Assembly (NCBI GenBank): GCA_002256425.1
Contig: NKIZ01000001.1
Coordinates: 1,385,943 to 1,449,942, forward strand
Direction: 5' to 3'
Length of the DNA stretch: 64,000 nt
Source of the DNA: Alphaproteobacteria bacterium PA2
GTDB lineage: Bacteria; Pseudomonadota; Alphaproteobacteria; Caulobacterales; Caulobacteraceae
The number at the start of each line of letters is the position of its first letter. The stretch's first letter is position 1. The translations under genes and the position numbers were made by a program. This document shows, in pieces, positions 23,094-46,631 of the stretch. The notes below the pieces were generated by a model. It did not search any database, had not been told where the DNA came from, and saw nothing but the letters and a program-made list of their open reading frames with translations.

Positions 23094-23204
23094 GTGCCTT
23101 CGCTCCCCGATCAGCGACTTTCCGTCGCGCCCATGATGGACTGGACAAATTCAATATATTTTTCAACTAATTACCGGGGGACGTGTGCACTCTTCGTACC
23201 CTAG
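23094..23204 (+). pseudogene. dusA: truncated 5' end of dusA at left island edge
   Basis: A GTG-started frame reads VPSLPDQRLSVAPMMDWT, the normal start of tRNA-dihydrouridine synthase A, and then switches to unrelated residues and a stop at 23202-23204. The intact dusA, 22.5 kb to the right, has LSIAPMMDWTDRHCR at the same place. This is therefore the displaced native start of dusA left behind by integration. Confidence 0.85.
23130..23146 (+). repeat. left attachment site (attL) of the dusA island
   Basis: 17-bp sequence CCCATGATGGACTGGAC, identical to 45672-45688 inside the intact dusA. It marks the point where similarity to dusA ends on the left and begins on the right, as expected of an integrase crossover core. 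Confidence 0.85.
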
Positions 23205-23586
23205 ATGTTCTCTTTCGCCAGGGTTTTCGGTCCTTCGCCAGGGTGCGAAATGTCGCGACACAATTTCTCGTGCCTGAAAACCACCATCCAGCGAATTGGA
23301 TAGGCACAACAGGCTGTACCCAAGCAAGTTTCCGGCCAAACGGCCGTACGCGGCCGGTTTTGTCGTCAGTGACTCACCATTGAATGTACCCAAAACGGAC
23401 GCCCCTACCGCCCAAGGGGCGGCCTGCAAGGATGGATCCGATCCGGGTTGAAACTGACACAACGTAACCATTGCCGGTTGGTCCCGGACCGACAAATTTT
23501 GTGGCGATCACGAAGAGTTCGCGCATTCGAATCCGAAGCGTCTTTGAGGGTCAGCACACTCCCAACTCTCAGATGGGGGTAGACAC
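23147..23586. other. left-end noncoding region of the island
   Basis: 440 bases between attL and the TonB receptor. A hairpin AAACGGCCG, loop TACG, CGGCCGGTTT (23338-23361) ending in TTTT-like sequence could be a terminator or regulatory fold. The sequence TGTACCCAA occurs at 23315-23323 and again near 23387. It must hold the promoter of the receptor gene, but I see no convincing -35/-10 pair. Confidence 0.4.
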
Positions 23587-26166
23587 ATGCGTCTTCAGAT
23601 CAGCTTACGCCAGTCCGTCATGGGTGGAGTTGCGCTTGCAGCGCTCGCGACTTCGCTGATTTCTTTCACACCGGCCCGGGCGGAAGCCACAGCGGCGGAT
23701 GCTGGAGCCGTTGGCCTGGAGGAGGTGATCGTCACCGCCCAGAAGCGGTCCGAGAACCTTCAGAAGACGCCAGCATCGGTTTCCGTTGTCAGCGCCCAGG
23801 CGATGGAAGACCGCCACATCTACTCACTGACCGACTTGAATGACGGTGCGGCCCCAGGGCTGACGGTGACGCCATTCGCAAGCCGCCCGTTCAGCATCAT
23901 CCTCAACATTCGCGGCGTCGGCATCATGGCCGATACAAACCAGCCGTCCGGCGAGTCTGGGATCGGGGTCTATCTTGACGGGGTCTATCTTGGCCGCCCG
24001 CAAGGCCTCGATGCCGGCCTTTATGATCTCCAGGCCATCGAAGTCCTGAAGGGGCCACAAGGCACCCTGTTTGGACGCAATACCCTGGGCGGGGCCTTGA
24101 ATATCACGACCAAGAAGCCTTCCGGCAAGTACGGCATGGAAGTGGTGGGCGGTGTCGGGAACTTCGGCAGCTATGAAAGCCAGTTCCATCTGAACCTTCC
24201 TGAATTCCATGATGTCTCGGTCAAGCTCGACGCCATGATCCAGGCCCATGACGGGTGGGTCAAAAATCCCATGCAGGATCAGCACGACTGGAGCGAGGTC
24301 GCACGTCGCGGTTTCCGCGCCCAGGTTCGCTGGACACCGACGTCCAAGTTCACCGCAGACTATGCCTTTGACACCAGCCACACCGAAGACACCACGATCT
24401 TCGGCTACATCGTCAAGCCTGCCAATAATGTGACGATTTCGCCGCTTTCGCTGATCCCGAAGGGCCGTATCAAAGTCGCGCCGATCGGCGCGATCCTGCA
24501 GCCCAGCCTCGGCGACCAATGGGGCCACTCCCTGACCCTGAACTGGGATGTCGCGCCCTGGGTGACCTTGAAGTCCATCTCCTCTTACCGGGATCTCTAT
24601 CAGGACCAGTATTCCCAGCCGGGCACCACGGGTGTGGCGATCACAAACAGTCTTGGCGCCGGCCAGAATTTCCAGCGCCTGTCTGTCGCGAAATTCGAAC
24701 AGAGCCAGTACAGCGAGGAAATTCAGGCGATCGGAAAAATTGATCGCCTCAACTTTATCCTCGGCACCACCTATTTTCATGAGAGCACGACCGATCAGGC
24801 CCAGGCTTTCAACACCTTGCACTGGGACACCAGCGGCATAGCGTCGACGATCTCGCCGATCGTCTACACGCCATTCGGGAATTCCGTGCTTGGCCCGAAC
24901 GCCTGCATCACAACACCAGCGAGCTGCAATTCAAACTACAACAACTTCTATGGACAGCCAGGGCAGACGACGCTGGTGCAAGGCCTCTATCCCAATATCG
25001 GCGTAGATCGCGCCAGCCGGGCGACAACGGATAGCTTCAGTCTCTACGGCCAGGCGACCTGGACGCCGCCCATCCTTGATGAACGGCTTCGTCTGACAGC
25101 CGGGGTGAGCTGGAACGAGGACCGCAAGGAAGGCGTTCTGCTGGTCGTCAACAACGCCTTGCCGTTCCTGCCTGACGCCAACGGGCAGCTGACTAAGGTC
25201 CAGGGCGTTGTCCCGCGCAGCCAGACATGGCGGCGGGTCAACCCGATGGTCAATCTGGCTTACGATGTCTCTGAAACCGTCTCGGTCTACGGAAAGTGGA
25301 GTACCGGCTACAGAGCCGGCGGCTTCAATTCCCGCTCGATCGTCTTTTCCTCATACGATCCCGAAGAAATCTCCATGGTCGAAGTTGGCCTGAAGAGCGA
25401 GTTCTTCGACAGACGTATGCGCTTCAATGTCGCTGCATATGCAGGTGACTACAAGAACGTCTATTATAACATCACGGCAAACTACAACACATTCGCCTCG
25501 GATCCGAAGACTGGTCAATTGATTGTCGTCAGCGGATCTACACGAACTATTGAAGACACCTATAACATGAAGGGCGTTGGAAAGGTTTCCGGGGTCGAGG
25601 TGGAAGTCAATTTGGCGCCGATGGAAGGGCTGACGATCTCTTCCAGTTACACCTACGCCAAGGAAGACATGCCGCTGTTTACAGATCCTGTGGCGCGCCC
25701 CCAAATCAACAGCGCCGGCGTAGTGACTGGATACGCGCAGAATACGCCGACCACCTACCACCAACTTTATACACCTGAAAACAGGGTGACCGGATCTATC
25801 GACTATCGCCGGGAAGTACTGGATGGTGCGACGCTCAGACTGCACCTCGACGGAAACTGGAATGACGGCCAGTACAGTTCCCCAGGCGACGTCAGCACCG
25901 GCACGAAGGACGCCAGTGGCGCCACCATCTATCTTCCGCAGCTGAAGACCCAGATCGGCGCAATCTTCAATGCCCGGATTTCAGTGGGAGATATCGAGGT
26001 CGGGGACTCAGGCGCAAGGCTCACCATGGCAATCTGGGCCCGCAACCTGTTTGACAACACGCTGATGATCGGCCGCAGCGGCAGTTATGTTCAGCCTTCC
26101 AGCAATGTTTCGGGCAGCTTCAACGACCCGCGGACCTATGGGGCGACAGTTTCCGTGAAGTTCTAG
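23587..26166 (+). CDS. TonB-dependent outer-membrane receptor, first gene of the phosphonate island
   Basis: 859-residue TonB-dependent receptor. After a signal peptide ending near TPARAEA, a TonB-box region (LEEVIVTAQKRSENLQ, about residues 44-60) leads into the plug (ILNIRGVG, GVYLDGVYLGRPQG, IEVLKGPQGTLFGRNTLGGALNI). A long barrel with the late YGKWSTGYRAGGFN strand and a C-terminal aromatic strand ending in VSVKF follows. It is directly upstream and co-directional with phnD (150 bases), suggesting that the imported ligand is a phosphonate or a phosphonate-bearing compound. That assignment rests on context only. Confidence 0.92.
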   Translation: MRLQISLRQSVMGGVALAALATSLISFTPARAEATAADAGAVGLEEVIVTAQKRSENLQKTPASVSVVSAQAMEDRHIYSLTDLNDGAAPGLTVTPFASRPFSIILNIRGVGIMADTNQPSGESGIGVYLDGVYLGRPQGLDAGLYDLQAIEVLKGPQGTLFGRNTLGGALNITTKKPSGKYGMEVVGGVGNFGSYESQFHLNLPEFHDVSVKLDAMIQAHDGWVKNPMQDQHDWSEVARRGFRAQVRWTPTSKFTADYAFDTSHTEDTTIFGYIVKPANNVTISPLSLIPKGRIKVAPIGAILQPSLGDQWGHSLTLNWDVAPWVTLKSISSYRDLYQDQYSQPGTTGVAITNSLGAGQNFQRLSVAKFEQSQYSEEIQAIGKIDRLNFILGTTYFHESTTDQAQAFNTLHWDTSGIASTISPIVYTPFGNSVLGPNACITTPASCNSNYNNFYGQPGQTTLVQGLYPNIGVDRASRATTDSFSLYGQATWTPPILDERLRLTAGVSWNEDRKEGVLLVVNNALPFLPDANGQLTKVQGVVPRSQTWRRVNPMVNLAYDVSETVSVYGKWSTGYRAGGFNSRSIVFSSYDPEEISMVEVGLKSEFFDRRMRFNVAAYAGDYKNVYYNITANYNTFASDPKTGQLIVVSGSTRTIEDTYNMKGVGKVSGVEVEVNLAPMEGLTISSSYTYAKEDMPLFTDPVARPQINSAGVVTGYAQNTPTTYHQLYTPENRVTGSIDYRREVLDGATLRLHLDGNWNDGQYSSPGDVSTGTKDASGATIYLPQLKTQIGAIFNARISVGDIEVGDSGARLTMAIWARNLFDNTLMIGRSGSYVQPSSNVSGSFNDPRTYGATVSVKF

Positions 26167-26316
26167 GGCCCGCGAGGCGCCCGGACTTACCGGACAAGTT
26201 CAGGATGGGTTCGGCCAGGCGGGCTTCCTCCGTCATCCGCACGACATGACTCTGGTTCAAAGGACGGGGAGGCCAAAGGTCGCTCCCGTCATCGGACACC
26301 GCGAACGGATTAATGA

Positions 26317-27267
26317 ATGCGAAGGCTGATCGTACTGCTTTTCGCCGGAAGCTTCCTGGCAGGTCTGAGCGCATGTGGCGCCAAGCCGGAGACGGATCAC
26401 CTGAAGGGTGAGCTGCGGATGTCCATGCAGGGCTCCAATGACGACCCGGCCATCGTCAAGCGCCGTGAGGCTTACAGAAAGTATCTCGGGGAAGTGACGG
26501 GGCGGCCAGTGAAGCTCTACGAGGCCTCGGACTATAACGGGGTCATTCAGGCCCTTGCGTCGGGACAGGTGGATGTCGCTACCCTCGCAGGCGGCGGCTA
26601 TGCAAACGTCGATGCGCAAGTGGGTGGCAAGGTTACGCCTATCCTTACAACCCGCAGGTCGGATGGCGGTACGGGCTATTATTCCGCCCTCATCGTTAAG
26701 GCTGACAGTCCCTTCAGATCCATCGCAGACCTGAAGGGGCATAGCCTTGGCTATGTCGATTTCAATTCGACCTCTGGCTATCTCTATCCCCGGGCGAAAA
26801 TGCGCGCCACTGGGATCGATCCCGACACCTATTTCGCCAAGGAGGCGTTCGCCGGCGGCCATACCCAGGCGGTCATGGCTCTCGCGAATGGTCAGTTCGA
26901 CGCGACCTTCGTACAGGTATCAGGTGGGGATCCGGCGCATGGGTTCACCACGGGCGCTGTCTACACCATGGCGCGGCGCGGCCTGGTAGACATCAAGGAC
27001 TTTCGAACAATCTGGGTGGTGGGTCCGGTTCCCGATACCGCCATCGTCGTGCGGACGGATCGACCTCAATCGCAGATCGACATCATAAGGGGCGCCATGG
27101 CCGCCCTGGCCTACGACCAGCCAGACCTGTGGACTGACATCGGTCAGCCGGCAGGATCTGAATACACAGCGATCGGGCGTCAGCACTACGCCGAGGTCAT
27201 CGCCCTCCGAAATGAGGACATTGCGCAGCGCCGGACTGGCTCGAAGGACGTTGGGGTCCCGAAATGA
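26317..27267 (+). CDS. phnD: phosphonate ABC transporter substrate-binding lipoprotein
   Basis: 316-residue PhnD-family periplasmic binding protein that captures phosphonates for the PhnCE importer. The N-terminus has a lipobox (LSAC, Cys about 20), so it is anchored to the membrane. The family pattern is clear: GELRMSMQGSNDDPAIVKR, YNGVIQALASGQVDVATLAGGGYA, SLGYVDFNSTSGYLYPRAKM, and FAGGHTQAVMALANGQFDATFVQ. The next binding protein overlaps its stop (ATGA), indicating tight coupling. Confidence 0.93.
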   Translation: MRRLIVLLFAGSFLAGLSACGAKPETDHLKGELRMSMQGSNDDPAIVKRREAYRKYLGEVTGRPVKLYEASDYNGVIQALASGQVDVATLAGGGYANVDAQVGGKVTPILTTRRSDGGTGYYSALIVKADSPFRSIADLKGHSLGYVDFNSTSGYLYPRAKMRATGIDPDTYFAKEAFAGGHTQAVMALANGQFDATFVQVSGGDPAHGFTTGAVYTMARRGLVDIKDFRTIWVVGPVPDTAIVVRTDRPQSQIDIIRGAMAALAYDQPDLWTDIGQPAGSEYTAIGRQHYAEVIALRNEDIAQRRTGSKDVGVPK

Positions 27268-28112
27268 AAGCGTTGCTTGCCCTGGTCAGCCTGTTGGCAT
27301 TGGCGCCTGAGCTGGTCTTGGCGGCGCCATTCCGGTTAGCAACCAACGCGGCGACAAGCGCTCCCTGTGGTCCGCTTGGCTCAGACGCCAATGCGAGCAA
27401 ACGCGCCCTGTTCAAATTACTTGCTCAAAGGCTTGACGCCGAAGTTCTGGATTGCCCGGTGGCCGGATTTCGTGGTGCGGCCGAAGCACTTGCGGCAGGG
27501 CAGGTCGACATGGGGACGCTTGATCCGGAGTCGTATGCACCCGTGGCCGCCAAGGTCCGGGCCATTCTGACCTTGCGGCCAAAGGATGGATTGATCCGAA
27601 CCCAGGTCGTCACCGCTGTTCGGGGCGGTTCTTCCTTCAAGTCTCTGGGTGATCTCCGTGGTCAGCGCCTCGTATTCATTGGCGTCGCCCCATATGACCG
27701 TGATCTGCCAAGAAAGGCCCTTGCAGACCAGGGTGCCGGATCATCGTATTTTTCAAAAGAGGTCGTCGCCGCGTCTGCTGAAGAGGCTCTCTCGCAGCTA
27801 CGCAAGCAGGATGCCGATGTCGTTGTGATGAACGCCGACGCTTGGCAGCGGAGTTGCCGCGGCGCCAAGCCACAGGATCAGCCGTGCGGCGATCTTCGTA
27901 TAGTCTGGAAGGGCCGACCCCGCGCGGCGAACGCGGTCGTGGTGCACCTGGACATGCCACCGCGCCTGCGCTTTCAGCTCATGGGAATTTACGTCGCCAT
28001 GCACCTGGAGGCGCCTGACGCCTTCATCGCGGCTTCCGCCTTTGCACCCGGCAATGAGAATTTTGACGGGGCTGAAGCTGCCGCGCTTTCACCGTCACAC
28101 GTGATCAAATAG
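27264..28112 (+). CDS. second PhnD-superfamily periplasmic binding protein
   Basis: 282-residue exported binding protein (signal peptide ending LVLAA, no lipobox) of the phosphate/phosphite/phosphonate-binding PhnD group. The pattern AAEALAAGQVDMGTLDPESYAPVAAKV and LGDLRGQRLVFIGVAP parallels PhnD, but overall divergence from the preceding gene is large and four cysteines (SAPC, VLDC, RSCRG, QPCG) are unique to it. Two binding proteins feeding one transporter suggest a wider substrate range. It overlaps phnD by 4 bases and precedes the first permease by 2. Confidence 0.8.
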   Translation: MKALLALVSLLALAPELVLAAPFRLATNAATSAPCGPLGSDANASKRALFKLLAQRLDAEVLDCPVAGFRGAAEALAAGQVDMGTLDPESYAPVAAKVRAILTLRPKDGLIRTQVVTAVRGGSSFKSLGDLRGQRLVFIGVAPYDRDLPRKALADQGAGSSYFSKEVVAASAEEALSQLRKQDADVVVMNADAWQRSCRGAKPQDQPCGDLRIVWKGRPRAANAVVVHLDMPPRLRFQLMGIYVAMHLEAPDAFIAASAFAPGNENFDGAEAAALSPSHVIK

Positions 28113-28114
28113 GC

Positions 28115-29011
28115 ATGTCGACAGGATCTGAAGCCGTCGTCGAAAACTTCGAGACGCGCCGTCGTCGGGCCCTGCGTCGCCACTGGTTGCAATCGGGCGT
28201 GGGGCTGCTGATCTTCAGTATGGTCCTCGCCGCATCATTCCAGGAAAGCCAGTTTTTCAGTTCAGATATTGGCGGGGATCCCCTGGGCCGGATCGGCGAA
28301 TTCCTGGTGCGCATGACCCCAAGCCTGCAAGGGCCGGTCTTGTTCGAAGGGCGTTCAACTCCAGGGTCGCTGGCGTCCTGGTTCTATGATCTGCCGGGGT
28401 GGCTCGCGGCCATCTGGCAGACCATTGAAATGGCCATTGTCGCCACGGTCTTTGGATCTTTGGGGGCTGTGGGCGCCTCGCTCCTCTGTGCATCCAACCT
28501 CATGCCCTGGCGCCCGGTGAGGTTCCTAGTGCGCCGCAGCCTTGAGGTGACCAGGACCATCCCGGATCTGGTCCTCGCCCTCATTCTTGTCGCCGCGTTC
28601 GGCGTAGGACCCTTGCCCGGCGTTATTACGCTCTCGATCTCGACCATGGGGGGGCTTGGCAAGCTGTTTGCAGAAATCAATGAAGAGGTCGATCCACGGC
28701 AGCTCGAGGCCCTGGATGCCGCCGGAGCGGGGCTGCTGAACAAGATCCGCTTTGGGGTCTTTCCCCAGGTGTTCCCGGCCTATGCCTCCTACGGACTTCT
28801 GCGGCTGGAAGGAAACCTGGCCGGAGCGGCCGCCCTGGGAATCGTCGGGGCCGGCGGGATCGGGCTCGAACTACAGCGCGCCATCACCTACACCGAATAC
28901 AATACCTATCTGGCGATCCTGATCCTCATGGTCGCGATGATCTTCCTGATCGACCTGATGTCAGAGGCCATTCGCCACCGCCTGATCCGACTGGATGAGG
29001 GCGGGCAATGA
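28115..29011 (+). CDS. phnE: phosphonate ABC transporter permease PhnE (first copy)
   Basis: 298-residue inner-membrane permease of the PhnE type with about six hydrophobic segments. It contains the family helix-loop ALDAAGAGLLNKIRFGVFPQVFPAYASYGL, corresponding to the EAA loop that contacts the ATPase, followed by AALGIVGAGGIGLEL. The segment RRSLEVTRTIPDLVLALILVAAFGVGPLPGV is also standard. It works with the second PhnE and PhnC; the start of the second permease overlaps its stop by 4 bases. Confidence 0.92.
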   Translation: MSTGSEAVVENFETRRRRALRRHWLQSGVGLLIFSMVLAASFQESQFFSSDIGGDPLGRIGEFLVRMTPSLQGPVLFEGRSTPGSLASWFYDLPGWLAAIWQTIEMAIVATVFGSLGAVGASLLCASNLMPWRPVRFLVRRSLEVTRTIPDLVLALILVAAFGVGPLPGVITLSISTMGGLGKLFAEINEEVDPRQLEALDAAGAGLLNKIRFGVFPQVFPAYASYGLLRLEGNLAGAAALGIVGAGGIGLELQRAITYTEYNTYLAILILMVAMIFLIDLMSEAIRHRLIRLDEGGQ

Positions 29012-29814
29012 CCACCGGAATACCGACGGCTCTACCCGCCGTGCATTCGCCATGGCCTGGACTCATCCGGGGGGCGGCTGCGTCGGCAGTCTGCCTCATA
29101 GCCCTGCTCGCGATGATGGCTGACCTCAACCTGTCGCCGGACGCGCTTGCCAGCGGATCCTCCAAGCTCGGGCGGTTTATGGCCTCAATGGTCCCGCCCA
29201 GCGACGGTGGCGATAGCATCAGGATCCTGAAATCACTTGCCGAGACCTTCGCCATGGCTGTTGCGGGAACCGCACTGGCGGTCCTGGCGGCCGTGCCCTT
29301 GGGTTTGGTTGGCGCAAAGACAGTGGTCAGCAATGGCCTGCTTCATTTCCTTTTCCGCCGATGCCTCGACATTTTCCGTGGCGTTCCGGCGCTTGTCTGG
29401 GCGCTGATCTTCATTTCCGCCTTTGGCCTAGGGCCCTTCGCCGGCGTCGTCGCCCTGGCATTTGCCGACATTCCCAATCTGGCGAAACTCTTCGCTGAGA
29501 CCCTGGAGAATTGCGACCGGGGTCCGGTCGAGGGCGCGCGCGCCTCCGGCGTTTCCAAGATCCTTGAAATCCGGTTTGGTCTCGCGCCACAGGTCGCGCC
29601 GGTGATGGCCAGCCAGTGTCTCTACTATCTCGAGAGCAATTTTCGGCACGCCGCTGTTCTTGGCATTGTCGGCGCAGGGGGCATTGGCTTCGAACTGGAT
29701 GAACGGATCAGGATCTTCGCCTTCGATCAGGTCGCCTATATCGTCCTGCTCTACATGGTCTGCGTCGCTGCGCTCGACTTTGTTTCGCGACAGCTCCGGG
29801 CACGACTGGCCTGA
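29008..29814 (+). CDS. phnE: phosphonate ABC transporter permease PhnE (second copy)
   Basis: 268-residue PhnE-type permease paralogous to the preceding gene, with the matching loop GARASGVSKILEIRFGLAPQVAPVMASQ and AAVLGIVGAGGIGFEL. The pair presumably forms a heterodimeric channel, as in many alphaproteobacterial phosphonate importers with tandem phnE genes. The N-terminal part differs substantially from the first copy. It is followed by phnC after 112 bases. Confidence 0.92.
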   Translation: MTTGIPTALPAVHSPWPGLIRGAAASAVCLIALLAMMADLNLSPDALASGSSKLGRFMASMVPPSDGGDSIRILKSLAETFAMAVAGTALAVLAAVPLGLVGAKTVVSNGLLHFLFRRCLDIFRGVPALVWALIFISAFGLGPFAGVVALAFADIPNLAKLFAETLENCDRGPVEGARASGVSKILEIRFGLAPQVAPVMASQCLYYLESNFRHAAVLGIVGAGGIGFELDERIRIFAFDQVAYIVLLYMVCVAALDFVSRQLRARLA

Positions 29815-29926: not shown

Positions 29927-30709
29927 ATGCTTGAACTGAATGAGCTGTCAAAGCGCTTCGGAGACACCCTGGCTGTGGACCGTGTCTCCCTGTCCATTGG
30001 GCGCGGAGAACTGGTCGGCATCATCGGTCGGTCCGGATCGGGAAAATCGACATTACTGCGCCTCATCAACAGGCTTGCGACGCCGACTGACGGGTCTGTC
30101 GCCTGGGATGGCTCACCGATTAATGGCCTGCGGGGCACGGAGTTGAGGCGCTGGCGACACAGCTGCGCCATGATTTTCCAGCAGTTCAACCTCTCACCCC
30201 GACTGGACGTGATCACCAATGTGCTGATTGGCGTTGCAGCGAAGCGTCCGCTCTGGACCTCCATGATCAAGTTCTTTCCGGCGGCGGATCGAGCCCGGGC
30301 AGTTCTTGAACTCGACGCTCTGGATATGGCCGCCGCCGCACTTCAAAGAGCCGGCACCCTGTCGGGAGGCCAGCAACAGCGGGTGGCGATCGCCCGTGCG
30401 CTGATGCAGGACCCGAACATCATCCTTGCCGATGAACCCGTGGCGTCCCTTGATCCCGTAAATGCAGAAGTCGTGATGTGCGCCCTGCAGAGGGCCTGTG
30501 CTGAGCGTGACATCCCGGTGCTGGTAAGCCTTCACAGTCTTGATATCGCCAGGCGCTACTGCACGCGGATTGTCGCCATGGCGAAGGGGCGCATTGTGTT
30601 CGATGGGCCGCCTGCGGCCTTGTCCCAGTCGATTGTCGATCAGATCTATGCCGGCCGGAATAATCGGCCGTCGCCCGCCCTGGTCGAGCCTGAGGTGGCG
30701 GCGGCATGA
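29927..30709 (+). CDS. phnC: phosphonate ABC transporter ATPase
   Basis: 260-residue ABC ATPase energising the PhnE channel. Walker A is GRSGSGKST (about residues 34-42), the Q loop is MIFQQFNL, the signature is LSGGQQQR, and Walker B is ILADEPVASLDP. The distinctive AKRPLWTSMIKFFPAADR insert is a known PhnC feature. The start at 29927 is the first ATG before the conserved MLELNELSKRFG. It overlaps the downstream acyltransferase gene by 4 bases. Confidence 0.94.
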   Translation: MLELNELSKRFGDTLAVDRVSLSIGRGELVGIIGRSGSGKSTLLRLINRLATPTDGSVAWDGSPINGLRGTELRRWRHSCAMIFQQFNLSPRLDVITNVLIGVAAKRPLWTSMIKFFPAADRARAVLELDALDMAAAALQRAGTLSGGQQQRVAIARALMQDPNIILADEPVASLDPVNAEVVMCALQRACAERDIPVLVSLHSLDIARRYCTRIVAMAKGRIVFDGPPAALSQSIVDQIYAGRNNRPSPALVEPEVAAA

Positions 30710-31401
30710 GCGGACCCAAGCTAGCTGACCGCCCTCTGGGTGCTGGAGAGGTCTATATCGGTCGGTTTCTTGGCCTCACCGATCCCTTGTCAACGAGCGC
30801 CGGGCCACAGCCCTACATCGATGCTCAGGCCAGTGTTAACGACAGCATACTGGGCCCCTGGACAAGGGTAGGCGGCCGAACCAGCCTCTCCGAGGTGACT
30901 ATGGGCGCCTACAGTTACATCGTCACAGACTCCAGCGCTGCCTATTCGGATATCGGGAAATTCTGCTCCATAGCTCGGGACGTCCGCATCAACCCGGGCA
31001 ACCATCCCACCTGGCGCGCGGCTCAACACCATTTCAGCTATCGGGCGGTGTCCTACAATCTTGGCGAAGCCGACGACGATGCCTTCTTCGACTGGCGCAG
31101 ATCCCATGATGTGAAGATCGGCCACGATGTCTGGATCGGCCATGGTGCAACCCTATTGGCGGGGGTCTCGGTGGGGACCGGCGCCGTGGTTGGCGCGGGC
31201 GCCGTGGTGTCCAAGGATGTCGCGCCTTTCACCATTGTCGGGGGCGTGCCGTCACATCCGATCCGTGAGCGGTTTCCGAAGGCCGTCCAGGGTGGTCTAT
31301 TGTCCCTCGAATGGTGGCATTGGGAGCATGACCGCTTGGCTGGAGCCCTGGAAGATTTCCGAGAGCTGGACGCCGACGCGTTCCTCGAGAAGCATGCCTG
31401 A
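30706..31401 (+). CDS. hexapeptide-repeat acyltransferase of phosphonate operons
   Basis: 231-residue left-handed beta-helix acetyltransferase of the type found in phosphonate-utilisation clusters (phn threonine-rich/hexapeptide family). Hexapeptide turns are visible through VGGRTSLSEVTMGAYSYIVTDSSAAYSDIG and IGHDVWIGHGATLLAGVSVGTGAVVGAGAVVSKDV. No phnO-type GNAT gene is present, so this protein could acetylate aminophosphonates or another intermediate, but the substrate has not been determined. The start overlaps phnC and the end overlaps phnN by 8 bases. Confidence 0.85.
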   Translation: MSGPKLADRPLGAGEVYIGRFLGLTDPLSTSAGPQPYIDAQASVNDSILGPWTRVGGRTSLSEVTMGAYSYIVTDSSAAYSDIGKFCSIARDVRINPGNHPTWRAAQHHFSYRAVSYNLGEADDDAFFDWRRSHDVKIGHDVWIGHGATLLAGVSVGTGAVVGAGAVVSKDVAPFTIVGGVPSHPIRERFPKAVQGGLLSLEWWHWEHDRLAGALEDFRELDADAFLEKHA

Positions 31402-31930: not shown

Positions 31931-31939
31931 TCGGCGGCT

Positions 31940-33777: not shown

Positions 33778-33779
33778 GG

Positions 33780-34490: not shown

Positions 34491-34496
34491 GGTGGC

Positions 34497-37317: not shown

Positions 37318-37319
37318 GT

Positions 37320-38562: not shown

Positions 38563-39282
38563 ATGATGATGACGCAGACGCTGTGGCGGAAGATTTCGCA
38601 GAATATCGAACGTCAGATCGAGGAGAAGGAGCTCAGTCCCGGGGATAAACTGCCGACGGAATACGAGCTTTCGCGCCAGTTCATGGTCAACCGCCATACG
38701 GTTCGACGCGCTTTGTCCTACTTGCAGGACAAGGGATTCATTGAATCCACCCAGGGCCGCGGAACTTTTGTTCGTCGGCCGACGCGCCCGGTGACCCTCA
38801 ACCGTCGCCCCCGCTTCGCCGAGGCGGTCATACTCCAGGGGCGCAGCCCGAGCGTGAAGGTTCTGCGCCTGGATATCCGGTCATCCGAGCCCCATGTCGC
38901 AGCTGAACTGGGACTTGCGGCGGGAGCGCCCATCGTATTCCTGGAGCGACTACGTCTCGTGGACGATGAGCCGACCGGGCTCAGCCTGCATCACTTCAGC
39001 GCCGAGCGGTTTCCGACCTTCCCCGAAATGTACCGGGCGCGCGGAACAATTACCCAGACCCTCATCGACAGTGGCGTGCCTGACTATACCCGCCGTCGCA
39101 CCTCCATCTCGTCGCGCCTCTCCATGCCCATGGAGGCCGAGCTGCTGCATGTCCCGCGACACATTCCGCTTCTGATCCAGCGCTATCTCAATGTGGATGG
39201 CTTGGGTCGCCCCCTCGAATACGGCGAATCCCGCGGCACGGGCGAGGTCACGGTCGAGTTTCCCCCACCCCCTACAGATTGA
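38563..39282 (+). CDS. phnF: GntR/HutC-family regulator of the phn genes
   Basis: 239-residue regulator with an N-terminal winged helix-turn-helix (LSPGDKLPTEYELSRQFMVNRHTVRRALSYLQDKGFIESTQGRGTFV, about residues 25-70) and a C-terminal UTRA effector-binding domain. It is the PhnF type that usually represses phosphonate or phosphate-related genes. It is divergent from phnG and in one unit with the second phnM, so probably controls both. Three consecutive ATG codons leave the exact first residue open. Confidence 0.9.
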   Translation: MMMTQTLWRKISQNIERQIEEKELSPGDKLPTEYELSRQFMVNRHTVRRALSYLQDKGFIESTQGRGTFVRRPTRPVTLNRRPRFAEAVILQGRSPSVKVLRLDIRSSEPHVAAELGLAAGAPIVFLERLRLVDDEPTGLSLHHFSAERFPTFPEMYRARGTITQTLIDSGVPDYTRRRTSISSRLSMPMEAELLHVPRHIPLLIQRYLNVDGLGRPLEYGESRGTGEVTVEFPPPPTD

Positions 39283-39298
39283 TCAGTTGGAGAGTTCC

Positions 39299-40432
39299 TT
39301 GGAGTACGCGCTTAAAAATGCCCGCGTCGTGACGCGAGACGAAGACTTCATCGGATCAGTCCTGGTCCGCGATGGGTGCATTGCCTCTGTCGATCGGGGA
39401 GTCAGTCAGACGGGTGAGGATCTGTCGGGGGATGTCCTGATGCCCGGCATCATCGACATCCACACGGACAATCTGGAAAAACACTTCTACCCGCGCCCGA
39501 ATATCGACTGGGATCCGGTATCGGCCGCTGTCGTCCACGATGGAGGATGTCTGTCCGTCGGTGTCACGACCGTGTTCGATTCCCTGAGCCTTGGCGCCTA
39601 CAATGGCTCTGCCGCACGGGGAAAGGCGAACCTGCACCGTCTGACAGAAGGCCTCGCCGCCGCGGAACGGGCAGATATGCTCAAGGCCGAGCACCGCATT
39701 CACTGGCGATGTGAGACGACGTCTGATGTCATGCACGACTGGCTGCTCGAGCTTTCCGAGCACCCCATGACTTCGATGTTTTCCCTGATGGATCACACTC
39801 CGGGCCAGCGACAGTACCGGAACATCGAAAATCACCTCAAGAACTGGCGTGATAACGGCATGAACCAAGAGGCGATCGACCTTAGGCTGGCAGACTGTCG
39901 CGAACGACAGGTGCGAAATGCAGACATAAACGCTGCCTTGGTGGCCAAAGTCGCCAAGGCGAGAAACGCCACCCTGATCAGTCACGACGATGAGACCCCC
40001 GAACACGTTGACCGGGCGGCTGACTTCGGCGCCACGGTCGCTGAGTTTCCGGTCACGCTCGAGGCCGCCGCCCGGGCCCAAGCCCGGGGAATGACGATTG
40101 TCATGGGCGGTCCGAACCTGATGCGTGGTGGTTCCTATTCGGGAAATGTGCCGGCCGCTGAGTTGGCCAAGAAGAACCTGCTGGAGGCCTTCGCCTCCGA
40201 TTACGTGCCGCGCAGCCTGATCGAATGTGCTTTCCGCCTCACAGCCCCAGGGTTTGACTGGCCCCTCGCCAAAGGGGTGGCAACCGTAACTGCAACAGTT
40301 GCCGAGGCCGCCGATCTCGGTGACCGGGGCGTTATAGAACCTGGAAAGCGGGCTGACCTGCTGAGGGTCAGGGTTGTCGGCGACCTGCCGATCCTGCGAG
40401 GGGTTTGGGTTCAGGGGCTTAGGGTGGCCTGA
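39299..40432 (+). CDS. phnM: second PhnM-type alpha-D-ribose 1-methylphosphonate 5-triphosphate diphosphatase
   Basis: 377-residue PhnM paralogue with the same marks as the first copy (DIHTDNLEKHFYPRPN, MDHTPGQRQYRN, SHDDETPEHVDRA, MGGPNLMRGGSYSGN, ASDYVPRSLIE). The catalytic motifs are complete, so it is likely active. A TTG start follows GGAGAG, 16 bases after the phnF stop, giving MEYALKNARVV, typical of the family. Its divergence from the first copy suggests separate acquisition or specialisation for another substrate. Confidence 0.9.
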   Translation: MEYALKNARVVTRDEDFIGSVLVRDGCIASVDRGVSQTGEDLSGDVLMPGIIDIHTDNLEKHFYPRPNIDWDPVSAAVVHDGGCLSVGVTTVFDSLSLGAYNGSAARGKANLHRLTEGLAAAERADMLKAEHRIHWRCETTSDVMHDWLLELSEHPMTSMFSLMDHTPGQRQYRNIENHLKNWRDNGMNQEAIDLRLADCRERQVRNADINAALVAKVAKARNATLISHDDETPEHVDRAADFGATVAEFPVTLEAAARAQARGMTIVMGGPNLMRGGSYSGNVPAAELAKKNLLEAFASDYVPRSLIECAFRLTAPGFDWPLAKGVATVTATVAEAADLGDRGVIEPGKRADLLRVRVVGDLPILRGVWVQGLRVA

Positions 40433-40553: not shown

Positions 40554-40655
40554 CCCGGGCCCAAGCGTCTCCTTACGCCAGAAGGTCTCACTGGTATGGC
40601 GGTGTGTCCGTTGCGCAATGGCCCGCCAGGGCCCTGATGGAAGCTTCACCAAAGA
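40554..40655 (-). pseudogene. truncated 5' end of a second tyrosine integrase
   Basis: The minus-strand frame reads SLVKLPSGPWRAIAQRTHR then TSETFWRKE, nearly the same as residues 3-32 of the intact integrase at 44461-45522 (SFVKLPSGSWRAIVRRKSR, ISETFRRKD). The DNA similarity extends on the promoter side to about 40705. The remaining 300 or so codons are missing. Confidence 0.8.
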
Positions 40656-40836
40656 ACACCGATTTCGTGTTCTCTTTGTGCGCACTGGGTGGGAGAAACA
40701 TAGCGAATAGTCGCGTTCGTTCCCACTCCCTCTCTGGCGAAGACATCGCCTCCGCCGGTGGTCCTTTCGGCTAGGTCATCGCCGGGCTTGATGGCGCTGC
40801 GCGTTCAGCGGAGTGTAAGGCCCATGTCACCGCCTG

Positions 40837-40866: not shown

Positions 40867-40877
40867 TTTGAAGCGAG

Positions 40878-40910
40878 GCGGATATGTCCGTTCGGAACGG
40901 ACATATCCGC
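40878..40910. repeat. perfect 33-bp palindrome between island modules
   Basis: Arms GCGGATATGTCCGTTC and GAACGGACATATCCGC, 16 bp each, pair without mismatch around a single G. It ends 27 bases from the hipA stop on the hipA 3' side. No T run follows on either strand, so it is more like a protein-binding site or recombination site than an intrinsic terminator. Confidence 0.8.
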
Positions 40911-40937
40911 TTATTGCCAAAGTGTTTGCTGGTCAGA

Positions 40938-42266
40938 TCAGAGAGCGTCCCACGCCGTTTCGAGCTGTCGCAGACGGCCCGTCATCGCATTGACGACCGA
41001 GGTGTGGATGTCGGCATGGAAATCCTGAGGCATCAGGCTAAGGGCCCTTTCCGTCGCAGGCAGTGCGTCTTGGAAGACCTCATCCAGAACCTGTTTGATA
41101 ATCGTTGAGCCCAAGCCTGCTTCCTTCGCCGTCTCGACAAAGTGCCGGCCGTGCACATCCTGGATTTCGTAGTGTCGGCTCGTGCCGACTGACATCGCCA
41201 GCTTGTACTTGTTGTGTGGAATGCGCTTGGCATCAAAGGCCGGTTGCGCGCTCAGGACGTCATAGAATGGCGTCAGTTCGAAGCGCCCTCCGGGCCGCAG
41301 GAAGACGCTGAAATTCTTACCGTGGCCGTCGGTCGCGCCGATGAGCCAGAAGATGATCTGACTTTTGAAGAAGGCCGCTTGGTCCGTGATCGGGTTATCG
41401 CTTTCCTTGAGTAGCGTCATGATGTCGACGGCGCTCGGCCCTTGCTGGTTTTGATATTTGCGGCTCGACGGGATCGAGAGCGCTTGGCAGCAATCTTCTT
41501 GTGGAAGACGCAGGATCTGGTCGTTGCTCCGCCAGCGACGATCGAAACGCTCGACGACAAGGACGCGGCGCGCTCCGAACCTTGCGATCTCGGTCTTCGC
41601 GATTGGCAACCGAAACCCTTCGAGAAGTTTCAGGCAATAGTGCTCGTTCTCGACGCTGTTCGAGAGATCGATCATGCCCCAGGGCGTCGGGATTTCTCCC
41701 AACTGCGGCTTAAGGATGTGCGTTGTCGGTGTGGCGCCGATGGGGCGTTTCCAGCGTCCGTCATGGAAGAGGAGCGCCGTCTTTTCCTGGGCGCCGGCGA
41801 CTGAAATCCGGAACTCCTGTTCGGTGTCGATACCGAGCGGCGCGCTGGCGAGGTTGGCGAGGATCGCCTCGATCTCCTCGTCGCTGACAGGCTCGCCTGC
41901 AATCGGCTGGAGGGTGTTGACCGCCATACCGTCGGGCAGAAACTGCATCGCCCCAGCGCAGTCACGGCCGATCTGCTCCAGCAGGCTGTAGGAGTCTGTC
42001 CCCAGCGCGCCCGTTTTCTCCGCTACGAGGCGGCGGACCATCGGATTATCGGGCAGGAGGTTGTCGAAGACTGCGACCACCGGCTCGCCCCGGAAGGTGG
42101 CCTTCCGTGGTGGCAGAGATAGCGAAATCGGGAAATGGGGTGGCCAATCCAGCCAGCTCTGATCGTACTGAAACTCGATCGCCCCACCGGGTTCTTTCTC
42201 CAACCGTCCCACAAGACGATTGTTGATCAGGACCTTGAGCGGGGCATGGGTCTTGCGGCGGCCCAT
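40938..42266 (-). CDS. hipA: HipA-type serine/threonine kinase toxin
   Basis: 442-residue HipA toxin, a kinase that in E. coli phosphorylates glutamyl-tRNA synthetase and induces dormancy. The autophosphorylation loop is present (ISVAGAQEKTAL, Ser155), as is the catalytic ATDGHGKN with Asp313. The C-terminal domain has the PFYDVLSAQPA metal-binding Asp. All key residues appear intact. The start shares one base with the hipB stop (TGATG). It belongs to the class preceded by a short XRE antitoxin. Confidence 0.94.
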   Translation of the reverse strand: MGRRKTHAPLKVLINNRLVGRLEKEPGGAIEFQYDQSWLDWPPHFPISLSLPPRKATFRGEPVVAVFDNLLPDNPMVRRLVAEKTGALGTDSYSLLEQIGRDCAGAMQFLPDGMAVNTLQPIAGEPVSDEEIEAILANLASAPLGIDTEQEFRISVAGAQEKTALLFHDGRWKRPIGATPTTHILKPQLGEIPTPWGMIDLSNSVENEHYCLKLLEGFRLPIAKTEIARFGARRVLVVERFDRRWRSNDQILRLPQEDCCQALSIPSSRKYQNQQGPSAVDIMTLLKESDNPITDQAAFFKSQIIFWLIGATDGHGKNFSVFLRPGGRFELTPFYDVLSAQPAFDAKRIPHNKYKLAMSVGTSRHYEIQDVHGRHFVETAKEAGLGSTIIKQVLDEVFQDALPATERALSLMPQDFHADIHTSVVNAMTGRLRQLETAWDAL

Positions 42267-42517
42267 CAGAATATGTCCTCGATATCAGCCGAAGAGCTTT
42301 TCGTTCGGGGACCGATCGTCATCTCCAGATCGAGCGCGGCAAGGAGATCGCTGATCGACGAGATTTTTGCGCCGTTGTGACCGCTTTCGATTTTTGAGAT
42401 GAGTTCCTGGCGCATGCCAGACCGCTCAGCCAGTTCAGTCTGACTCATTCCCTTCAGTTTCCTGAATTTTTGGATGAGGTTGCCGACCTGGCTCGGGGAG
42501 CGCGCAATCTGGGTCAT
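42266..42517 (-). CDS. hipB: HipB-type antitoxin, XRE helix-turn-helix
   Basis: 83-residue XRE protein with the HTH at about residues 10-60 (VGNLIQKFRKLKGMSQTELAERSGMRQELISKIESGHNG) that neutralises HipA and represses the operon. The C-terminal tail is short, as in HipB. It begins the hipBA operon, 21 bases from a large perfect palindrome, with GAAGGAGAT as ribosome-binding site. Confidence 0.93.
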   Translation of the reverse strand: MTQIARSPSQVGNLIQKFRKLKGMSQTELAERSGMRQELISKIESGHNGAKISSISDLLAALDLEMTIGPRTKSSSADIEDIF

Positions 42518-42537
42518 GAGAATCTCCTTCTCACAAT

Positions 42538-42582
42538 TATGCCCTAAATCGCATAAAATATCAATATGCGATTTAGGGCATA
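42538..42582. promoter_or_regulatory. hipBA operator, perfect 17-bp inverted repeat
   Basis: TATGCCCTAAATCGCAT and its exact complement ATGCGATTTAGGGCATA are separated by 11 AT-rich bases, immediately upstream of hipB. Further dyads follow: ATCCGA / TCGGAT (about 42593-42618) and GCATAA / TTATGC (about 42606-42625). Multiple operators of this kind are the norm for HipB autorepression. Confidence 0.8.
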
Positions 42583-42625
42583 ATAAGATGATATCCGATA
42601 AAGAGCATAAAGTCGGATTATGCGG

Positions 42626-42975
42626 TTTTTCGCATTAGCGGCTCGGTGTTGATTTTCACTGAGAACTGACCCGCCTGTGATGGTGGATTAGCTTGTTTTG
42701 ATGGTCCAGATCGGCCGAAGAGGCCCTGAAATGACTGAAATTCAGCCCTCTGCGGACATCGTACAATTGGCCAGGAAATCGCAGAATTGGCGGGATCGGG
42801 GCCTAGAAAATTTCGATGGCAGGATAAAAGCCGCGAGGTGCGTCGGGGTGTTTGGGGCGAAAAGTTCAGTAAAATCAGCTGCCTAGAGTGAGGTATAGCA
42901 AGTGCTTTTGATGTGCGGTTTTCGGTAAGGGGTTGAATAGAAAGAAGGTTTTACACCTCGTGCCCTTTTAGAGAG
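42626..42975. other. noncoding part of the island between hipBA and the nested inverted repeat
   Basis: 350 bases. The only frame of note is 62 codons at 42698-42886 without a recognisable domain or good ribosome site. I see nothing else that I can support. Confidence 0.4.
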
Positions 42976-43121
42976 AGCCTTAAACGCATGGTGGAACGAG
43001 GGCCGGGCTAGGGTCGGACCGTCAAGGGTGCGCGCCCTTGGCGCGCATCGCGGAGCGACGGCCAGGCCGCCCTTGACAGCCCGTCCCGACCCCGGCGGAG
43101 GCTGGCCATGCGCTTAAGGCT
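42976..43121. repeat. large nested inverted repeat of unknown function
   Basis: Outer arms AGCCTTAAACGCATGG (42976-42991) and CCATGCGCTTAAGGCT (43106-43121) match except for one base. Inside, GGGTCGGACCGTCAAGGG (43011-43028) pairs with a slightly interrupted complement at 43070-43092. The centre carries a further hairpin CAAGGG / CCCTTG with GC-rich loops. No coding frame crosses it. It could be a transfer or replication origin, a structured RNA, or an insertion-element end. Confidence 0.75.
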
Positions 43122-43295
43122 GACAGTGGCTTGGCCTATGATAGAGCCGATTTTCTGCCGGCCTCATTTGAGAGGAGTAGCCGCCTTTAGTGGGCGCTAG
43201 GCGATGGGGTTTGGCATCGCCTCAAGTCCTGGATAGCTAGTTTCTCAGAGGCCTTCCGGATGGGCCATGGACGCGGCATCGTCCTTACGCAAACC

Positions 43296-43718
43296 TCAAG
43301 CGTATCCGCCCTCGGCCAGGTGATCGACATAGTCGCGAACGGCGGCGGCGTTGCCTGACTTAACGAGCGCTTCAGCTGTACGACCGCCAAAGGCCGGAAT
43401 GGGTTCCGCGCGATACCAGGCCATGGCTTGCGCAGCGCTCCCCGCCCAGCTTTCCACGAGGTAGATGATCTCCAGCATTTCCCGAATTCGGGTCTGCGCT
43501 TTGGGACCATTGCGGCGGCGAGTCTTCTGGAAGACTTCACGAGCGAGGCCGGCGGTGTCCGCCAATTGAGCTCTGGACATGGCGAAGGCTTCGGCCAGGT
43601 CATCAACCTTCATAGCGCCGGGTTCTTCCAGCAGGCTGATGATTGATATGCGGCGCGAGGGCAGGGCCTTTCTAGCCTCAGGACCACTGGCGGCTTGTGC
43701 TGACACATGGTCACGCAA
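43296..43718 (-). CDS. MbcA/ParS/Xre-type antitoxin (DUF2384), no partner toxin seen
   Basis: 140-residue protein with the Xre-like N-terminal part (VDDLAEAFAMSRAQLADTAGLAREVF, about residues 37-62) and the C-terminal toxin-binding domain (AWYRAEPIPAFGGRTAEALVKSGNAAAVRDYVDHLAEGGYA). Members neutralise RES-domain NAD-degrading toxins encoded just downstream. Downstream here (43140-43295) there is no RES gene, only noncoding sequence. It may be an orphan antitoxin, an anti-addiction gene, or the survivor of a deletion. The start could also be an internal ATG. Confidence 0.75.
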   Translation of the reverse strand: MRDHVSAQAASGPEARKALPSRRISIISLLEEPGAMKVDDLAEAFAMSRAQLADTAGLAREVFQKTRRRNGPKAQTRIREMLEIIYLVESWAGSAAQAMAWYRAEPIPAFGGRTAEALVKSGNAAAVRDYVDHLAEGGYA

Positions 43719-44037
43719 TTGCCTGCAGTCCTTTAGACTTCACCAGGCTCAGCAGTTTCAGCGATGGGCCGTCAGGTCGTTTTTCGCCGCGCTCCCATTT
43801 GCTGACTGCATCCTTGCGAACGTTCAGATAGCTGGCGAAGACGGGCTGGGAGACCTGCTCGCGTTCCCGTAGCGCCTTGATTTCCTCGGGCGCCATGGGC
43901 GTCACCGGCGTCAGGCACAGGGTGTCGAACTCGCGCATGGTCGCCTTGTCGATGACGCCGGCGCGATGCAGGCCGGCAGCGGTCTTGTGAACCGTCCCGA
44001 GTATGCCGCCTTCAGTCTTGCCCGCCGTCTTCGCCAT
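43711..44037 (-). CDS. XRE-family antitoxin of a RelE/HigB-type pair
   Basis: 108-residue helix-turn-helix protein with the HTH at about residues 45-85 (PEEIKALREREQVSQPVFASYLNVRKDAVSKWERGEKRPDGPSLKLL). It resembles HigA/NadS antitoxins and follows its toxin gene, the reverse of the common antitoxin-first order but usual for HigBA. Its start at 44037 lies inside the toxin gene's last codons, a 26-base overlap. It also touches the next antitoxin gene by 8 bases at its end. Confidence 0.87.
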   Translation of the reverse strand: MAKTAGKTEGGILGTVHKTAAGLHRAGVIDKATMREFDTLCLTPVTPMAPEEIKALREREQVSQPVFASYLNVRKDAVSKWERGEKRPDGPSLKLLSLVKSKGLQAIA

Positions 44038-44404
44038 CGATCCTAACCTCTTCAATCTCACCGGCGGCTTTCGCCGTCTCCAGGGCGCTCGGGTCGAGGG
44101 CCAGGAAGGTGGCCGCCAACACCTTCAGCGCCTTTAGTTCCCTGGGTGTGATGTTCGCCTTCTCGTTCTTGGCAAAGCCATGGACGAAGAAACTATGTCC
44201 ACCGACTTTGAACAGGATGATCGTCCGAAAGCCGCCGGACTTGCCGCCACCATCCCGGGCGATCCTCTGCTTGAAAACGCCACCGCCGAGGTCGGCGTCC
44301 CATTGACCGGACGCCACAGCCTTGGCGACATCAAGCAGATCTGCACTTTTCAAATCCGCCTTGCGTGCGAACCTCGAAAACTCCTTGGTCTTGTAGACGC
44401 TCAT
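44012..44404 (-). CDS. RelE/HigB-like toxin of a type II toxin-antitoxin pair
   Basis: 130-residue protein of the RelE/ParE superfamily (HigB-like, COG4737 type). The pattern YKTKEFSRFARKADL, GVFKQRIARDGGGKSGGFRTIILFKVGGHSFFVHGFAKNEKANIT matches this toxin group, whose best-known members cleave mRNA on the ribosome. The basic residues of the fold are kept (Lys, Arg in the FKQRIAR strand). The paired XRE antitoxin overlaps its 3' end. The C-terminal tail is longer than typical. Confidence 0.87.
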   Translation of the reverse strand: MSVYKTKEFSRFARKADLKSADLLDVAKAVASGQWDADLGGGVFKQRIARDGGGKSGGFRTIILFKVGGHSFFVHGFAKNEKANITPRELKALKVLAATFLALDPSALETAKAAGEIEEVRIDGEDGGQD

Positions 44405-44460
44405 CGCCTAATGAACCTCAAAGAGTGTAGCTCCAAGAGCTATGATTTTCAAGGTCGAGA

Positions 44461-45522
44461 TCATGCCGCCCTCGACGCCGCGATGGCGTGCAGTGACTCT
44501 GGCTTCAGGTGCGTATAGCGCCGCAGCATCTTCCAGTCCTTGTGACCAGTCACGAGAGCTACTTGCTCAATCGCGAACCCCGCCTCGAACAGGCGGCTTG
44601 TGCCTTCGTGGCGTAGGTCGTGGAAGTGGAGATCCTTGATGGCCAGGTCCTTACAGGCTCGGGTGAAGGCCGTTCCCGCTGACTTGTGGTGATAGGGGAA
44701 GATCCGGTCATCCTCATTGGCCCGGATGGTGCGCTGTTCCTCGATCAGGGCCAGGGCGTCAAAGCCGGAGACGCTGAGCAGGGGGATGCGCTGATCATTG
44801 CCTCGCTTCTCGCGCGGGTCCTTACGGTCGCGGATGGTCAGCATCTTGGTGCGCTCATTCAGGTCGCTCCAGGTCACCCGGCAGATTTCTTCCTGACGCA
44901 TGGCGGTGGCGACGGCGAACTGGATGATCCGACCCATGGGGATGATCTGACGGTCATTTCCCTCGAAGTGTGCGATAAGCTTGGCCAGCTCTTCGTCGGT
45001 CGGGCGCCGGTCACGCTCATTGCCCTTGCCCACAAGGCCAAGGCGCTTGAGGGCGATACGCGCCAGATCGATCGGCTCAACAGGTACCGAGACGCCGTGC
45101 ACTGCCGCCGCGTGGGACAGGATGAGCTTGATCATCCCGATATCAATGCTGAGGGTCACCGGCCCAGCGCCCTGTTCGGCCCTGGCGCGGCCAAAGCGGA
45201 TGATCCGCTCGCGGTCCAGCTCGATCATGTTCAGGCCGCCCAGCTGACGCTTGAGCATGGCCAGGGTTGCGTCCTTGGACCGACCCGGCGCGCGACCGAC
45301 TTCCTTCATGTCTTCGATGTGCAGGTCGATCAGATCGCCAAAAGTTGTCAGCCTTGCCGCCCGCGCCCCCTTGGGCGCCTCGCCGCGATCAATTTGTCGC
45401 TCGGCGTTGAGCGCCCAGGACCGGGCGTCGTCCTTGCGCCGGAAGGTCTCACTGATATAGCGGCTCTTGCGTCGCACTATGGCTCGCCAGGACCCGGATG
45501 GAAGCTTCACGAAGGAGGCCAA
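44461..45522 (-). CDS. site-specific tyrosine recombinase (island integrase)
   Basis: 353-residue phage-type integrase. The catalytic set is visible: Arg209 (TAMRQEEICRVTW), His301-x-x-Arg304 (HDLRHEGTSRL), His327 (TGHKDW), and the nucleophile Tyr336 (RRYTHLKP). The N-terminal KLPSGSWRAIVRRKSRYISETFRRK forms an arm-binding-like domain. It starts 113 bases from dusA and is transcribed away from it, consistent with an integrase that uses dusA as attachment site. All catalytic residues are present, so it may be active. Confidence 0.95.
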   Translation of the reverse strand: MASFVKLPSGSWRAIVRRKSRYISETFRRKDDARSWALNAERQIDRGEAPKGARAARLTTFGDLIDLHIEDMKEVGRAPGRSKDATLAMLKRQLGGLNMIELDRERIIRFGRARAEQGAGPVTLSIDIGMIKLILSHAAAVHGVSVPVEPIDLARIALKRLGLVGKGNERDRRPTDEELAKLIAHFEGNDRQIIPMGRIIQFAVATAMRQEEICRVTWSDLNERTKMLTIRDRKDPREKRGNDQRIPLLSVSGFDALALIEEQRTIRANEDDRIFPYHHKSAGTAFTRACKDLAIKDLHFHDLRHEGTSRLFEAGFAIEQVALVTGHKDWKMLRRYTHLKPESLHAIAASRAA

Positions 45523-45635
45523 TTTTGTGTCCTCTATGTGTACAGTGAGACGGAGAAACGTAGCGAAAAGTAGCGTATTGGGTCGTAAAATCGGCGGCGA
45601 GGCGGCCGATCCAACGAATTGAAGTTAAATAAAAA

Positions 45636-46631
45636 ATGCAGCAATTTCAAGTGCATAGATTGTCTATTGCACCCATGATGGACTGGACCGACCGGCATTG
45701 CCGGGCTTTTCACCGTGTCCTGAGCACGCGCACCCACCTTTATACCGAGATGGTCACCACAGGCGCCGTGCTGCATGGGGACCGGGAAAGGCTGCTGGGC
45801 TTTGATCCTTCAGAGCATACGGTGGCCCTGCAACTGGGTGGGTCCGATCCCGTGGACCTGGCCGCCGCCGCCCGGATCGGCGCGGACTATGGCTATGACG
45901 AAATCAATCTCAATGTCGGTTGTCCGTCAGACCGGGTGCAATCGGGGCGGTTCGGCGCCTGCCTGATGCGGGAGCCTCAGCTGGTGGCCGAATGCATGTC
46001 CGCCATGGGCGCCGCAGTCGATATTCCGGTGACCGTGAAGTGCCGGATCGGGGTGGATGACCAGGATCCGGAAGAGAGCCTTTTCACCCTGGTCGAGCAC
46101 TGCGCAAGGGCTGGCGTGACGACCTTCATCGTCCACGCCCGCAAGGCCCTGCTCAAGGGGCTGTCTCCCAAGGAAAACCGGGACGTGCCGCCCCTGAACT
46201 ATCCCCTGGTCTATCGGCTGAAGGCCGGGCGCCCGGACCTGACCATCGCCATCAACGGCGGCGTCGGGACGCTGGAAGACGCGGTCAGCCATCTGGACCA
46301 TGTGGACGGCGTGATGATCGGTCGGGCGGCCTACCACACGCCAGGCATTCTGGGTGAAGCCGATCGGGTGATCTTCGGCGAGGGCGAAGCCTGTGACCCT
46401 TTCGAGGCGGTCGAGGCCTACAAGCCCTATCTCTCCAGGCAGTTGTCACAGGGCGTGCACCTTGCCCACATGACCCGTCACATGCTGGGGCTTTTCCATG
46501 GTCGACCGGGGGCCCGGACCTGGCGTCGCATTCTGACGGTGGAGAGCATAAGGCCCGGCGCCGGCCTGGAGGTCGTCGACCAGGCCCTTGCGGCGGTGCG
46601 TAGACCTGCCCTGACCGAAGCCCTGGCCTAG
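45636..46631 (+). CDS. dusA: tRNA-dihydrouridine synthase A, 5' end supplied by the island
   Basis: 331-residue FMN enzyme that reduces U20/U20a of tRNA to dihydrouridine. The active-site cysteine is Cys96 (NLNVGCPSDRVQSG); INGGVGTLEDAV and DGVMIGRAAYHTP bind FMN phosphate. The first dozen codons (MQQFQVHRLSIA) lie left of the 17-bp attachment core and belong to the island, replacing the native start that remains at 23094. The protein should be functional because only the poorly conserved N-terminus was exchanged, but the promoter is now the island's. Confidence 0.96.
   Translation: MQQFQVHRLSIAPMMDWTDRHCRAFHRVLSTRTHLYTEMVTTGAVLHGDRERLLGFDPSEHTVALQLGGSDPVDLAAAARIGADYGYDEINLNVGCPSDRVQSGRFGACLMREPQLVAECMSAMGAAVDIPVTVKCRIGVDDQDPEESLFTLVEHCARAGVTTFIVHARKALLKGLSPKENRDVPPLNYPLVYRLKAGRPDLTIAINGGVGTLEDAVSHLDHVDGVMIGRAAYHTPGILGEADRVIFGEGEACDPFEAVEAYKPYLSRQLSQGVHLAHMTRHMLGLFHGRPGARTWRRILTVESIRPGAGLEVVDQALAAVRRPALTEALA
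45672..45688 (+). repeat. right attachment site (attR) in dusA
   Basis: CCCATGATGGACTGGAC, identical to 23130-23146, encoding PMMDW of DusA. Upstream sequence differs from the native dusA start and downstream sequence is the normal gene. Confidence 0.85.

Follow-up and report, generated by a model that had tools for sequence, protein, structure and literature searches.

We analysed a 64,000-nucleotide stretch of the genome of Alphaproteobacteria bacterium PA2 (the window; the genome is a single contig of 3.47 Mb), in which a 22.5-kb island lies between a gene for an HU-type DNA-binding protein and the tRNA-modification gene dusA. The island carries a phn cluster for carbon-phosphorus (C-P) lyase and, next to dusA, a tyrosine integrase. 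Its boundary features, with left and right attachment (att) sites attL and attR, are as follows.

22693-22971, minus strand: HU-type DNA-binding protein, the left chromosomal neighbour (Pfam Bac_DNA_binding)
23094-23146, plus strand: attL, the original dusA 5' end, with a GTG start and ending in the core at 23130-23146
23147-23240, plus strand: left arm of a dusA-specific element (left-arm profile)
44461-45522, minus strand: intact dusA-type tyrosine integrase, 353 amino acids (Pfam Phage_integrase)
45523-45688, plus strand: right arm and attR, with the new dusA leader and start (ATG at 45636) and the core at 45672-45688
45636-46631, plus strand: intact dusA, with 12 island-derived residues ahead of the core (Pfam Dus)

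A sequence-only reading of the window had proposed an island in the 5' end of dusA, bounded by a 17-bp identical repeat and adjoining a tyrosine integrase. Both copies of this core, CCCATGATGGACTGGAC, lie where it placed them (23130-23146 and 45672-45688, spaced by 22,542 bp), and their orientation and reading frame are identical, as it had also claimed: they encode VPSLPDQRLSVAPMMDWT on the left and MQQFQVHRLSIAPMMDWTDRHC on the right. Over GCNCCCATGATGGACTGGAC the repeats share 17 identical bp and match at 19 of 20 positions, in agreement with semiconserved end repeats of ~21 bp. With up to 3 mismatches allowed, a 20-base pattern is found twice where 0.06 occurrences are expected, and the degenerate core with at most one mismatch occurs exactly twice in the whole 3.47-Mb genome, both times at the island ends; the reversed core, used as a control, gave 0 matches genome-wide. 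Because the window holds four further recurring exact 17-mers, which represent three distinct repeats at least 17 bases long, core length alone is weak evidence; it is the natural empty sites in relatives that settle the reality of the island.

Two such sites were found. The alignment of genome G086 to the window ends at 23146 and resumes at 45669, and in G083 the flanks of the window are likewise present without the island. In both genomes, which like the window's own belong to Phenylobacterium, the HU gene leads directly to an uninterrupted dusA with a single core, and the HU-type protein adjoining dusA is 99-100% identical. The starts of dusA, MSVFPDQRLSVAPMMDWTDRHC in G086 and MSTSPNQRLSVAPMMDWTDRHC in G083, come close to what the sequence-only reading had predicted for relatives lacking the island; they resemble the left remnant of the window, VPSLPDQRLSVA, and are unlike its present start, MQQFQVHRLSIA. 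Together, the anatomy of the locus and the natural empty sites show that recombination took place at the core within dusA. The dusA 5' end has been replaced by the island with the reading frame kept, and an island-supplied leader and 12 residues keep the gene open. Its expression after insertion would be expected by analogy with a published Vibrio relative, for which a lacZ test was made (PMC8409611). The arms were searched with profiles that exclude the window: the right-arm profile (26 sequences) finds the right end at E 3e-56, and the left-arm profile (13 left ends from 11 other genomes) matches 23163-23212, with the next best match in the window at E 1.

In a 15-sequence integrase alignment, window included, R209, H301, R304, H327 and Y336 are invariant; we take these to be the catalytic RHRH residues and tyrosine. 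A homologue of the integrase (E 1e-40 or better) is present in 27 of 101 Phenylobacterium genomes, the window's own included, and the core lies ~150 bp before the integrase start at 24 of 28 loci of the genus integrase. From a wider contig scan we kept the best 80 of 474 homologue loci, with flanks of up to 10 kb (shorter at contig ends); dusA lies within the fetched stretch at 75 of these 80. The integrase is 38-40% identical to those of Burkholderia phages DC1 and BcepMigl, which are among the phages listed by Farrugia et al. 2015 (PMC4482086). We conclude, from locus context and phage-integrase identity, that the enzyme is by sequence of the known dusA-specific kind. That a dedicated integrase group uses dusA, as the sequence-only reading stated, accords with the same paper.

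The cargo comprises the following genes.

23587-26166, plus strand: TonB-dependent outer-membrane receptor
26317-28112, plus strand: two PhnD-like substrate-binding proteins
28115-29814, plus strand: two PhnE permeases
29927-30709, plus strand: PhnC ATPase (match starts at residue 90 of a longer open reading frame, ORF)
30706-31930, plus strand: hexapeptide transferase of phn clusters (TIGR03308) and PhnN
31940-32626, minus strand: DUF1045 phn-operon protein
32629-38407, minus strand: phnM-L-K-J-I-H-G, the C-P lyase core
38563-39282, plus strand: PhnF-type GntR regulator
39302-40432, plus strand: PhnM-like amidohydrolase, 43% identical to the G083 phnM product

All of phnG, H, I, J, K, L and M are present and free of internal stops. 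PhnJ matches the solved C-P lyase chains 4xb6/7z15 at E < 1e-130 and keeps the cysteines C-x2-C-x21-C-x5-C, and a homologue of the receptor (77%) sits beside the phn cluster of G009. Judged by its protein families, the cargo would provide full phosphonate uptake and C-P lyase. A Pho-box pattern occurred 5 times against 3.6 expected, with none positioned just ahead of a phn operon. We found phn genes at none of the best 80 integrase-homologue loci (flanks of up to 10 kb, matches of PhnC/K/L-type ATPases below 45% not displayed); the sequence-only reading had called a whole C-P lyase pathway non-standard cargo for a dusA island. The cluster itself is accessory in the genus, where 30 of 101 genomes encode PhnJ.

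Beyond the last phn gene lies a second set of features, which the sequence-only reading, sound on the island, the empty sites and the whole C-P lyase cargo, did not recognise as containing a second, truncated integrase.

40569-40716, minus strand: second dusA-type integrase, a stub comprising the leader and at least codons 2-31
40938-42517, minus strand: HipBA toxin-antitoxin pair
43296-44404, minus strand: ORF with an Xre/MbcA/ParS C-terminal domain, helix-turn-helix (HTH) protein and RelE-like toxin

The stub is an 86-nt repeat of the 5' end of the intact integrase (80% identical), and its likeness continues to ~40525 by eye. It was also recovered by tblastn (E 1e-6, 63% over 30 amino acids), and the right-arm profile matches 40573-40714 at E 3e-10. 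It lies just past the last phn gene in the orientation of the intact integrase and is followed by HipBA, a spacer, the Xre/HTH/RelE set and the intact integrase. The HipBA segment (40918-42716) has a counterpart in G082 near a dusA-type core, with 95.3% identity across 1,799 bp; because the rpoB genes of the two genomes are only 84.7% identical, a recent move of this segment is probable. The dusA contig of G082 carries three cores in the same direction, two of them with one mismatch, and the segment lies outside the first. The stretch 43711-45998 (HTH/RelE, integrase and arm) recurs with dusA at 70-73% identity in other alphaproteobacterial loci, among them Tistlia, a Caulobacterales bin and Phenylobacterium, and may be a stabilising module. 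Three smaller observations concern this region. The spacer (42700-43290) is lower in G+C, and pieces of it (42815-42877 and 43028-43113) recur in other islands of the genus; compared with plasmids, the 42.6-43.3 kb spacer gave one short match. A perfect 16-bp inverted repeat with a 1-nt gap (40878-40910), just past the hipA 3' end, is a possible terminator. A faint look-alike att site near 40820, spotted by eye, was taken for chance.

The dusA site has been used serially elsewhere in the genus. We obtained left ends from 11 other genomes (locus L262 of G014, with no clear core, was dropped); some of them lie on a contig other than that of the integrase, and these were called from the left arm. 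In 5 of the 11, what lies outside the left core is the right arm of another element: the right-arm match extends at least ~95 bp outside the core in G026, G006, G008, G051 and G022, so these genomes had held an earlier element, and G026 has an integrase fragment there as well. The match extends no more than ~40 bp in G035, G099, G037, G038 and G001, and G082 is borderline. Among 29 dusA loci of other genomes, 8 have an adjacent integrase, 15 look native, one (L028) has a divergent or broken integrase, one (L013) is cut at a contig end, and 4 (G100, G065, G057 and G097) carry a right arm without an integrase; that of G057 spans only ~60 bp. In G100, where both flanks are known, the gap between HU and dusA is 994 bp, with arm sequence in its final part ahead of dusA, and dusA starts with MNQFQIHRLSVA. 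The larger ORFs beside the orphan arms fall in other families or in none, and integrase matches are absent there. The site is reused in this genus and leaves scars.

We interpret the locus as a dusA-specific integrative island of Phenylobacterium with phn cargo, and assign this reading a probability of about 0.92; it was likely built in at least two steps. The integrase recombined the 17-bp core of the island with the matching core at about codons 13-18 of dusA, stranding the original start at the far island end while the right arm gave dusA its new leader and 12 residues. Of the order of assembly we think it likely that a phn island, whose own integrase survives as the 5' stub, came first, and that a block of HipBA, RelE and integrase then joined it on the dusA side, the inner att site being lost; such a tandem arrangement is suggested by the stub and by the separate history of HipBA, on which it must rest because no inner core or inner left arm is detectable. 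The surviving integrase is predicted to be able to excise the whole as one circle. No relaxase, type IV secretion gene or other transfer gene was recognised among the island ORFs scanned (some short or antisense ORFs lay outside the scan), so that spread would need a helper, and the relaxase and type IV secretion of an integrative and conjugative element (ICE) are likewise not found among them. Several points weigh against our interpretation: a sigma-70-type promoter was sought at attR and none was found; the left-arm match is weak (E 5e-4); pattern and arm profiles detect no inner core or left arm between the stub and HipBA; and G083, G086 and G100 are draft assemblies with estimated contamination of 4%, 4% and 9%.

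A single insertion, by one dusA element that already held phn, HipBA and RelE and carried the stub as an internal relic, would explain why only two cores and one left arm can be detected and why the outer ends act as one unit. We consider it unlikely, since the stub lies, correctly oriented, where the 5' end of an integrase would close the phn block, HipBA has a recent history of its own, and 5 of the 11 genus genomes examined show serial insertion. An ordinary chromosomal phn cluster beside dusA with a chance 17-mer repeat draws on the other 17-mers that recur in the window, but the precise empty sites, the arms, the integrase and the replaced dusA start leave it a negligible probability.

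Recent import of phn by the island from a distant donor is suggested by the G+C content of the island (60.5% against 63.5-64.0% in the flanks), by the lack of a PhnJ match in G086 (86% complete) and G100, two of the three closest dusA relatives, and by the empty site in G083 and G086. Against it, DNA identity between the window and G083, which represents a sister species, is 76-81% for phn and 78-80% for the flanks, the best PhnJ outside the genus reaches 89% (390 family genomes, of which 34, the window's own included, encode PhnJ) compared with 97% in G083, and G083 is the partner of the window in the PhnJ-K tree as well as in the rpoB tree. These trees take in 23 of the 30 PhnJ-positive genomes of the genus, the window's own among the 30, with 7 omitted for missing or partial rpoB; the rpoB tree joins the pair to G046/G005/G088 with support of 0.000, a placement we did not use. 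A distant recent donor is therefore unsupported by identities and trees, and we hold it to be improbable. The phn cluster is an accessory cluster of the genus, without sign of recent import from afar; because the identities of phn and flanks are equal, it probably dates back to the split between G083 and the window and was re-homed within the lineage, or else came from a near relative. In G083, whose dusA is empty, the cluster lies elsewhere and ends beside an RND efflux operon (locus L117, 1-6600), another accessory junction at the same phn end; a search of six other genomes, among them the window's, gave no match to the pump of this operon at E 1e-150. Among seven genomes compared for the genes just past phn (the window not among them), G023, G060, G049 and G032 share many, G088 a few, and G009 and G083 none.

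Much of this anatomy has precedent. The dusA islands of PMC4482086 share with ours the kind of integrase, the insertion at the dusA 5' end, the semiconserved end repeats, an island-given dusA start and very variable cargo, and the hosts that the paper names include Phenylobacterium zucineum and Caulobacter sp. K31; our island differs in the truncated second integrase inside it, and the word phosphonate is absent from the main text of that paper, its supplementary table aside. Replacement of the dusA start and the insertion of elements in tandem at this gene have been published as well (PMC4482086, PMC8409611). Among the Vibrio dusA elements, including IMEVchUSA3, IEVpaBan1a/1b stand in tandem at dusA (PMC8409611); these elements are mobilised by IncC plasmids, whereas no mobilisation gene was recognised here. 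ICEs at dusA are mentioned for Mesorhizobium (PMC8627217). The fGIphn islands of marine HIMB59 also place a C-P lyase cluster with a transporter on a variable island, but the main text of their report contains neither "integrase" nor "dusA" (PMC10734472). No paper joining dusA, phosphonate and integrase was found in a literature search beyond whose reach lay most subscription journals and supplementary tables. The integrase family, the target and the gene repair are thus known, and the C-P lyase cargo and the composite history are new, the novelty of the cargo being provisional because of that reach.

Elsewhere in the window, ORFs at 5819-6881 lie in a stretch of ~50% G+C (6-8 kb), the first of which (5819-6499) looked RHS-like by eye; this identity was dropped, as it has no Pfam match. 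A class A RNase P RNA lies at 60379-60763.

Our results place an entire phosphorus-scavenging pathway on a defined and possibly excisable element for which natural empty sites exist. A single genus thus offers a test of how phosphonate use is gained and lost. More tentatively, dusA may be a layered site whose start is a fossil record, and which here took up the lineage's own C-P lyase cluster as excisable cargo. If this is true, one island after another inserts, decays and is covered by the next, each time overwriting the start of DusA, and an accessory pathway of the chromosome has become excisable cargo. As the scars suggest, a mobile element can permanently rewrite the start of a core tRNA-modification gene, even once the element itself is gone.
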